33,270 bases of DNA from the NCBI GenBank assembly GCA_020852515.1, contig JADZAS010000022.1, positions 1 through 33,270 on the forward strand, given 5' to 3'. Shown in pieces: positions 3,014 through 6,427 of the stretch. How positions within the stretch are numbered: the stretch's first letter is position 1; each line of letters begins with the position of its first letter. Made by a program: the position numbers and the translations under genes. Source of the stretch: Phycisphaerales bacterium. Lineage in GTDB: Bacteria > Planctomycetota > Phycisphaerae > Phycisphaerales > UBA5793. Below the pieces are notes generated by a model that was not told the origin of the DNA, searched no databases, and saw only the letters and a list, made by a program, of their open reading frames with translations.

Positions 3014-3132
3014 GGGGGACCCCGCCGAAGCGGTGAGTACACCGCATCGACGGGCTTTGTCCGCATGGAGCGCCGTGACTTGTCGCGTGTGCCGAAAACA
3101 ATCGCGGCGGCAGGGGGGAACCTGTCGCCGCG
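3014..3132 (-). repeat. Two-hairpin repeat, copy A (downstream of cytochrome c)
   Basis: Read on minus, the first hairpin pairs 3121-3132 with 3103-3114 (CGCGGCGACAGG with CCTGCCGCCGCG, one wobble) and is followed by ATTGTTTT, so it looks like an intrinsic terminator 28 nt after the cytochrome c stop. About 50 nt on, a second hairpin pairs 3021-3028 with 3047-3054 (one mismatch), with an inner GCGG/CCGC stem. Both hairpins and their order recur at 3769-3904 after the 16S gene. Confidence 0.75.
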
Positions 3133-3159
3133 AGAGGGAAATCTGGTTGTTGGAGAAGC

Positions 3160-3552
3160 TTACTTTTGCTCTTCGAGGTAGGCGATCACATTCTTCACGT
3201 CTTCCACTTTCTTGATGCCGGCGAAGGCCATTTTGCCGCCGGGGACGGTGCCTTTGGGATCCTGAAGATATTTCATGAGGTTTTCCTGCGACCACGTGAG
3301 GCCGGACTCGATCATGGGGTTGGAGTACTTGTAGCCCTCGATCGAGGCCGCTTTTCGGCCGACCACACCGAAGAGGCTGGGACCGACCTTGTTTTTGCCC
3401 TGTTCCACGGCGTGGCACGCCATGCACTGCCTGAACGTACTTTTACCCGCGGCCGCATCGCCGGCAGGGGCTTCGGAGGCCGCCATGGCCATGCCCATCG
3501 CCAAGGAACCCGCCATCAGGAACACGCCACCCCACATCATTTCTCTCTTCAT
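3160..3552 (-). CDS. Class I c-type cytochrome, exported
   Basis: Protein of 130 aa. A signal peptide of about 25 residues (MKREMMWGGVFLMAGSLAMG, cleavage near AMAA) would send it to the periplasm. The haem c site is CMACH (Cys43, Cys46, His47). The likely distal axial ligand is Met108 in GGKMAF. GPSLFGVVGRKA and GYKYSNPM are typical of the soluble cytochrome c2/mitochondrial-type class, which shuttles electrons between a bc1-like complex and an oxidase or other acceptor. A reading frame 11 codons longer exists, but the start at 3552 gives a normal signal peptide and has AAAGG about 12 nt upstream. A promoter candidate is at 3716-3744 and the transcript probably ends in the hairpin at 3103-3132. 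The partner is not in the window. Confidence 0.9.
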   Translation of the reverse strand: MKREMMWGGVFLMAGSLAMGMAMAASEAPAGDAAAGKSTFRQCMACHAVEQGKNKVGPSLFGVVGRKAASIEGYKYSNPMIESGLTWSQENLMKYLQDPKGTVPGGKMAFAGIKKVEDVKNVIAYLEEQK

Positions 3553-3715
3553 CGGTCGCCCAACCTTTCTGTTGAACCAGACCACGAAGCTGGATTTCGA
3601 AGGACGTCACGGCTGGTGCGGAAGTGGGAGGATGGCGGGAAGCGGGAGAAACGTCCGTGATGCCGGGGAAATCCCTGTGCCGGGCCGAAGACGATCTTCA
3701 GTCCAATGGGGGACA

Positions 3716-3744
3716 AGTGTAAAAATATTAAGTGGTATTTACAA
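3716..3744 (-). promoter_or_regulatory. Candidate promoter for the cytochrome c gene
   Basis: On minus, TTGTAA (3744-3739), a 17-nt AT-rich spacer and TACACT (3721-3716) give 4/6 matches at both boxes. It is the most AT-rich stretch between the 16S repeat and the cytochrome start, about 165 nt upstream of the ATG. Confidence 0.4.
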
Positions 3745-3768
3745 CAAGGCGGGAGCTGTCGAACATCC

Positions 3769-3904
3769 GTCGGACCCCGCCGAAGCGGCGAGTACACCGC
3801 ATCGGCGGGCTTTGCCCACCTGTCGTCGCGTCGTGTAGCGACGTGTCGAGTCTATGTGTCGAGCCTATAAAACAACCGCGGCGGCAGGGAGACCTGTCGC
3901 CGCG
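3769..3904 (-). repeat. Two-hairpin repeat, copy B (downstream of 16S rRNA)
   Basis: On minus this follows the 16S 3' end by about 160 nt. Hairpin 1 pairs 3893-3904 with 3877-3888 (CGCGGCGACAGG with CCTGCCGCCGCG) and runs into GTTGTTTTATAGG, a terminator-like T-rich tail. Hairpin 2 pairs 3776-3783 with 3802-3809 (CCCGCCGA/TCGGCGGG, perfect 8 bp) with an inner GCGG/CCGC stem around GTACA. The sequence between the hairpins differs from copy A while both stems are conserved, which suggests that the structures are what is maintained. Confidence 0.75.
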
Positions 3905-4025
3905 TGGATTGATTCGGTTTGGTATGGCCGATCGTTGACAAGGGAACAGTTGGAAGGGCGCTTAGCCGAACGTTGCCGGACGGCCGCCTCTCGTGAGAGA
4001 GACGAGGTTGTGATGACGATTTCAC

Positions 4026-4062: not shown

Positions 4063-5577
<1,515 letters not shown>

Positions 5578-6186: not shown

Positions 6187-6223
6187 GGATGGCGGTGGAT
6201 GGCGGTGGATGGCGGTGGATGGC
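6187..6223 (+). repeat. 10-bp tandem repeat (GGATGGCGGT, about 3.7 units)
   Basis: Three perfect units at 6187-6216 followed by a partial one. It lies in non-coding sequence upstream of the rRNA promoter, and copy number is likely to vary. Between 6021 and 6427 nothing else was recognised. Confidence 0.85.
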
Positions 6224-6427
6224 GAAATGGCGTCAAACTCGAGGGGGTTCGCGAGGCCGCAAGGGGGTTTGGGTGGTTGGCAGAGTCTTTCACGAGGCTG
6301 CCGGTGATTTCGGGAAGGGGTTGTGGCCTCCGGGGGCCGCCGGCGCCGAAGCAGTGCTGTGCGGGGGCCCTTTGACAACCGGGGGCTGCTTCTGGTACAT
6401 TGAGCGGGTGAGGCACTTCGAGCGATT

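Follow-up and report, generated by a model that had tools for sequence, protein, structure and literature searches.

REP elements of the GTAG and CGTC super-families are short imperfect palindromes that lie between genes, partly occur as inverted pairs and favour gene 3' ends; one genome may hold many of them while its near relatives hold few or none. The sections of PMC3733652 that describe them also mention REP-like families devoid of a terminal motif. Class 3 TnpA_Y1 transposases, known in Planctomycetes, carry a Y-x4-Q motif and an HUH motif of the form NHVH and are flanked by unusual, possibly multicopy hairpins with a CnGA foot, according to the corresponding part of PMC6006769. Intrinsic (Rho-independent) terminators lie just 3' of a gene and are built of a GC-rich hairpin with a T-rich tail behind it. 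The locus reported here combines a hairpin of this last kind with a member of a REP-like family bearing an unpaired CAAAG tag, of which we recognised no description in the open papers searched.

The window, that is, the whole 33,270-nt stretch analysed, is a complete contig (C22) of an assembly of 4.72 Mb in 39 contigs. Two elements on its minus strand, copy A (3014-3132) and copy B (3769-3904), have the same arrangement in the same orientation: first hairpin 1, followed by a TTGTTTT tail, then a spacer, and finally hairpin 2 (Table 1). Our preferred reading, to which we assign a probability of about 0.68, is that an ordinary terminator with a REP-like passenger was duplicated locally, so that the pair now lies behind both the 16S gene and a probably acquired cytochrome c gene. 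Copy homology, structure, covariation, copy numbers, gene-end bias and the occurrence of a hairpin-flanked transposase with a matching empty site were all computed here.

Table 1. Coordinates of the two copies and of the neighbouring genes in the window.
Feature	Position	Strand	Remarks
Copy A hairpin 1	3103..3132	-	intrinsic-terminator-like, after cytochrome c gene; fold -21.8 kcal/mol with one more pair
Copy A tail of hairpin 1	3095..3101	-	TTGTTTT, T-rich
Copy A hairpin 2	3017..3062	-	REP-like hairpin; CAAAG tag 3055-3059; model R3 62.2 bits
Copy B hairpin 1	3877..3904	-	intrinsic-terminator-like, 161 nt past 16S; fold -19.7 kcal/mol
Copy B tail of hairpin 1	3869..3875	-	TTGTTTT, T-rich
Copy B hairpin 2	3772..3817	-	REP-like hairpin; CAAAG tag 3810-3814; model R3 63.9 bits
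Class I cytochrome c gene, bracketed by both copies	3160..3585	-	Pfam PF00034
16S rRNA gene, upstream of copy B	4066..5577	-	RF00177, 1507.9 bits
AACTGTT box in 16S trailer	3945..3951	-	common to relatives; complementary to a stretch of the 16S leader

The original prediction had described two shared hairpins 3' of two different genes, with almost intact stems, a T tail on hairpin 1 and a differing spacer, and each of these points agrees with the coordinates, the genes and the comparison of the copies. Between hairpin 1 and the gene before it there are 27 nt in copy A, counted from the cytochrome c stop codon, and 161 nt in copy B, counted from the 16S gene. All 11 pairs of hairpin 1 are identical between the copies, while 3 of the 18 pairs of hairpin 2 differ; each of these three involves a G-U on the minus strand, so that pairing is kept, and would be an A-C on the plus strand. 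The spacers (32 and 51 nt) are weakly alike, with 124 of 2000 shuffles scoring as high. Folded on the minus strand, each copy beats all of 200 shuffles (z -4.0 and -4.7). The copies are direct and 755 bp apart. In a BLAST search of the own genome, a 146-nt copy B query recovered copy A at E 2.6e-18 and no third match below E 0.17, and a search of the same genome with the hairpin 2 pattern, allowing up to 3 mismatches, returned copies A and B and nothing further. The proposal of a duplicated terminator cassette is thus borne out in that there are two copies, both local. Elsewhere in the window, positions 1900-2980 hold a disrupted gene for a DDE transposase (PF01609 matches 2063-2935, and stops interrupt the longer frame), which we take to be ISAs1, with a possible terminal repeat beside it at 2961-2980, and a short tandem repeat of GGATGGCGGT units occupies 6187-6224.

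Hairpin 1 is very probably an ordinary intrinsic terminator of the minus strand, this being the best reading of its position, stability (-19.7 and -21.8 kcal/mol) and tail. It has the stable GC-rich hairpin and the T-rich tail just 3' of a gene that intrinsic terminators have, and differs from them by an A-C mismatch inside the minus-strand stem, where the plus strand would have G-U, and by a G that interrupts the tail; a consensus terminator scan did not list it. The 16S trailers of a same-genus relative (G001) and of a second 16S gene on contig C5 of the own assembly carry T-tailed hairpins at 177 and 166 nt, 3' of the common AACTGTT box and unrelated to hairpin 1, and it is their place that copy B occupies. 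For the same-family genome G005, visual inspection of the trailer shows a possible hairpin at about this position, and our scripted rule gave no T-tailed candidate at the corresponding position. Transcription of the 16S and cytochrome c genes would end at their respective copies of hairpin 1. Weak matches to hairpin 1 near Y1 transposase genes of the own genome were judged to be chance, as the sequence reads as coding DNA.

The C5 gene is itself a separate observation: full length (C5:189943-191426, L042:4944-6427), it is 84% identical to the 16S of the window, and the sequence downstream of it is similar to that behind the 16S gene of G001, a gene 98% identical to the window's. It represents either contamination or a very divergent second 16S.

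Hairpin 2, on the other hand, does not qualify as an intrinsic terminator. The scripted rule found no T-tailed candidate on either strand of either copy, and the lack of a T tail together with the lack of a clear orientation after genes (see below) makes it unlike a terminator. It is a member of a dispersed REP-like family, CAAAG-CCCGCNGATGC...GCTTCNGCGGGG. A covariance model (R1) built from the two window copies and run on 400 genomes of the order gave matches at E <= 0.01 in 13 of them, the own genome counted and some matches weak. The best foreign match (E 4.5e-15) was in Phycisphaeraceae bacterium SJ132 (G165), a MAG, and Planctomycetota bacterium Dive100_bin3.48 (G072) also matched strongly. 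With all candidates scored, R1 returned 59 matches in G165, 24 in G072 and 4 in G129, figures that include reverse-strand readings of the same copy; about 46 copies were collected from SJ132 and 28 from Dive100_bin3.48. A regular expression applied to the collected loci gave 98 readings, from which 12 (reverse readings of one copy, or weak) were removed. The remaining 86 copies belong to G165 (47), G072 (28), G129 (4), the own genome (2), G123 (2) and G069, G108 and G159 (1 each).

The distribution of the family is as uneven as that of REPs. At the thresholds used, four genomes of the same genus and one of the same family gave no copy, save for a weak match (E 0.007) in G004. A search of the genome collection with the family pattern found 20 stretches, 19 of them in SJ132, and with the exact window pattern none; the 146-nt element had no match in the plasmid collection, nor the family pattern in viral contigs. 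Class-wide, model R3 matched 2 of 397 genomes, again counting the own one, and absences there are weak evidence because 16 candidates per genome were scored. A separate match in G023 was judged to be chance since it sits in apparent coding DNA. The pairing of hairpin 1 with hairpin 2 was seen nowhere in the own genome and the collected loci but in the two window copies, and no relative of hairpin 1 was found among the family loci examined. The mobile terminator cassette of the original prediction is, in the form stated, not supported by these counts: the pair is found here alone, its dispersed and probably mobile part is hairpin 2, which has neither T tail nor clear orientation, and a mobile terminator family in the own genome is ruled out by a total of two copies.

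The CAAAG hairpin is short and imperfectly palindromic. Its CAAAG tag is unpaired, its basal stem has 8 bp, a T-T mismatch is conserved, and the apical stem covaries freely. At 40-48 nt and 14-18 pairs the hairpin falls within the 20-65 nt expected of an imperfect REP palindrome. The T-T mismatch is retained in 81 of the 86 copies and the exact tag in 68, the other 18 showing scattered variants; a GTAG or CGTC foot tag occurs in none. Covariation across copies, proposed as a check in the original prediction, turned out to be strong. In an alignment of 79 copies (71 distinct rows), which leaves out four L058 and two L047 copies of a shorter-loop subfamily and a probable spurious match inside a gene (L092:729-770), standard pairs fill 97.8% of the cells vs 83.4% when shuffled, both sides have changed in 135 cells (36.4 on average in shuffles), and covariation scores 0.409 (0.125 in shuffles). 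None of 500 shuffles reached any of these three values, which are not to be taken as probabilities because the aligned rows are related. The number of pairs with a both-sided change is unremarkable (7 vs 5.7, reached in 53 of 500 shuffles).

Gene context was assigned with a simple ORF caller based on codon usage. The copies are multiple and mostly intergenic, with 3 of 47 in G165 (one probably spurious) and 0 of 28 in G072 inside called ORFs; the window's genome has 2 copies. Part of them form inverted pairs, as on contigs C204, C342, C77 and C109 of G165. By orientation, the G165 copies are convergent in 13 cases, codirectional with the gene in 13, against it in 9, divergent in 5, at an edge in 4 and inside a gene in 3; in G072 the corresponding figures are 9 convergent, 6 with the gene, 5 against it, 4 divergent and 4 at an edge. 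Gaps that hold a copy in G165 are convergent in 12 cases, codirectional in 20 and divergent in 4 (n=36), compared with 0, 19 and 11 among gaps of at least 60 bp without a copy in the same loci (n=30), a small control that relies on a crude ORF finder and in which a 40-bp insertion itself lengthens gaps. For codirectional copies the upstream 3' end is the nearer one in 18 of 22 cases in G165 (p 0.004) and in 7 of 10 in G072. There is no clear strand preference, with 13 G165 copies lying with the gene and 9 against it. The family copies therefore favour gene ends in the way that REPs do, unlike directional terminators. The anticipated clustering at gene ends was thus found (18/22; convergent 12/36 vs 0/30), and the preference for the terminating strand was not (13 vs 9).

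Two further repeats were observed in the collected loci. Ten of the 47 G165 copies are enclosed by a second dispersed repeat, GCAGATGAACGCAGATAA, present as an inverted pair (for instance in L094, L101 and L104), and the short repeat GCGACAAGTCGCGGCGCT[AT]CG occurs at 23 places in 15 collected loci of REP-rich genomes (L138, L159, L163 and 12 others).

Set beside the GTAG and CGTC elements in the relevant sections of PMC3733652, the CAAAG family is alike in its palindrome, intergenic sites, inverted pairs, 3'-end bias and uneven copy numbers, and differs in its tag, its conserved T-T mismatch and its freely covarying apical stem.

A candidate for the enzyme behind the family comes from the Y1 transposases, whose domains are present in all eight genomes searched. 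In G072 (contig C153, L167) and G069 (contig C43, L160), inverted pairs of a related hairpin stand on either side of a Y1 gene, the hairpin in G072 having the form CAAAGCCCGGTCATG...CTTGGCCGGGGTC; the G072 unit also has direct hairpin copies, 674 bp apart. These hairpins make up a related subfamily (about 32 bits with R3) and not the window type; next to the G165 Y1 gene and the examined Y1 genes of the own genome, no hairpin of the window type was found. In the same genus, G108 (L200) has the matching intergenic site without the Y1 unit, that is, an empty site, so the unit is subject to presence and absence within a genus; the gene after this site is presumably recO. Both translated proteins read MHVH and YILRHQ and score below the curated cut-offs of the NCBIfam IS200 and REP transposase models. 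At their foot, the flanking hairpins read CAAA in L167 and related letters in L160. With respect to class 3 as characterised in part of PMC6006769, the G072 and G069 units are alike in YILRHQ (Y-x4-Q) and in their hairpin flanks, and differ in having a 5' tag CAAA rather than CnGA and MHVH rather than NHVH. Since a related hairpin borders the Y1 unit, the CAAAG family is probably mobilised in trans by such a Y1 (HUH) enzyme.

The cytochrome c gene bracketed by the two copies encodes a protein that resembles class I cytochromes c of known structure. It is absent from the five relatives G001-G005 (four of the same genus, one of the same family), and G001 has neither the gene nor the cassettes after its 16S. 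The cytochrome c protein is 59-65% identical, across two thirds of its length, to proteins on the best 12 listed plasmid records, all from Azospirillum. Judging from these similarities, the gene was likely gained by horizontal transfer, and its donor probably belonged to the Alphaproteobacteria. Within the order, relatives at 35-36% identity occur in two of 400 genomes, both of family f2, and six weaker matches were also obtained; an origin in the REP-rich family f6 was considered and is unsupported, these f2 proteins being the best relatives in the order. No clean empty site for the cytochrome c and cassette region was found in relatives. The suggestion that recombination placed the cytochrome gene between two copies is accordingly compatible with the absence of the gene from five relatives and its alphaproteobacterial likeness, but no clean empty site backs it.

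As to termination, transposition in trans, the origin of the cytochrome c and the order of events, we infer the following scheme. The CAAAG family has dispersed to intergenic sites elsewhere in the order, probably through a Y1 enzyme acting in trans, and one copy would have come to lie just beyond a terminator in the window's genome. This unit of terminator and REP would then have been duplicated locally, to stand now after both the 16S and the cytochrome c genes. Each hairpin 1 would stop transcription of its gene, while hairpin 2 would be mainly a passenger, and possibly an extra barrier at the 3' end upon read-through.

Other explanations were weighed against this local duplication. Hairpins 1 and 2 could form one functional tandem module for termination or 3'-end protection, copied since both genes need it. 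The order and orientation shared by the copies, the hairpins kept in spite of differing spacers, and the three hairpin 2 changes that all preserve pairing on the transcribed strand would fit such a module, as would the excess of G-T (57) over A-C (16) when the 86 copies are read in the CAAAG orientation. However, much of that excess is one U-G pair common to the G072 group (G165 alone gives 18 to 8, p 0.08), hairpin 2 lacks a T tail whichever strand is read, G165 copies lie with or against the upstream gene about equally, and hairpin 1 is missing beside hairpin 2 in the other loci examined, which leaves the module an unlikely explanation. Independent insertions of one mobile terminator-REP element would agree with the preference of family copies for gene ends, but the paired element is found twice in total, within 755 bp, and the collected loci examined hold no relative of hairpin 1; we regard this as highly improbable.

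The two copies might also mark the ends of a unit bounded by REPs, which had the cytochrome c gene as its cargo and was moved by a Y1 transposase in trans. Direct copies do bracket a probably foreign gene, and the G072 Y1 unit has direct hairpin copies too (674 bp apart, here 755 bp). Yet simple transposition leaves the duplication of the terminator along with the REP unexplained, the inverted hairpin pairs seen at Y1 unit ends are absent here, no empty site was found, and the examined Y1 loci of the own genome have no window-type hairpin beside them, so that we give this reading little credence. A more elaborate version, in which the CAAAG-REP family, with a Y1 HUH transposase acting in trans, picked up a cytochrome c gene from Alphaproteobacteria and brought it to a site behind the 16S gene, the unit's own terminators making the insertion transcriptionally safe, appears to us a long shot as well.

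Local duplication of a terminator with its REP-like passenger thus remains our preferred account, and it illustrates how a terminator duplicated locally can pass for a mobile one. With the CAAAG hairpins, a planctomycete order that has been little studied gains a REP-like family that covaries strongly and has a tag of its own. Furthermore, the hairpin-flanked Y1 transposase and the empty site in the same genus make the mobility of such units testable.
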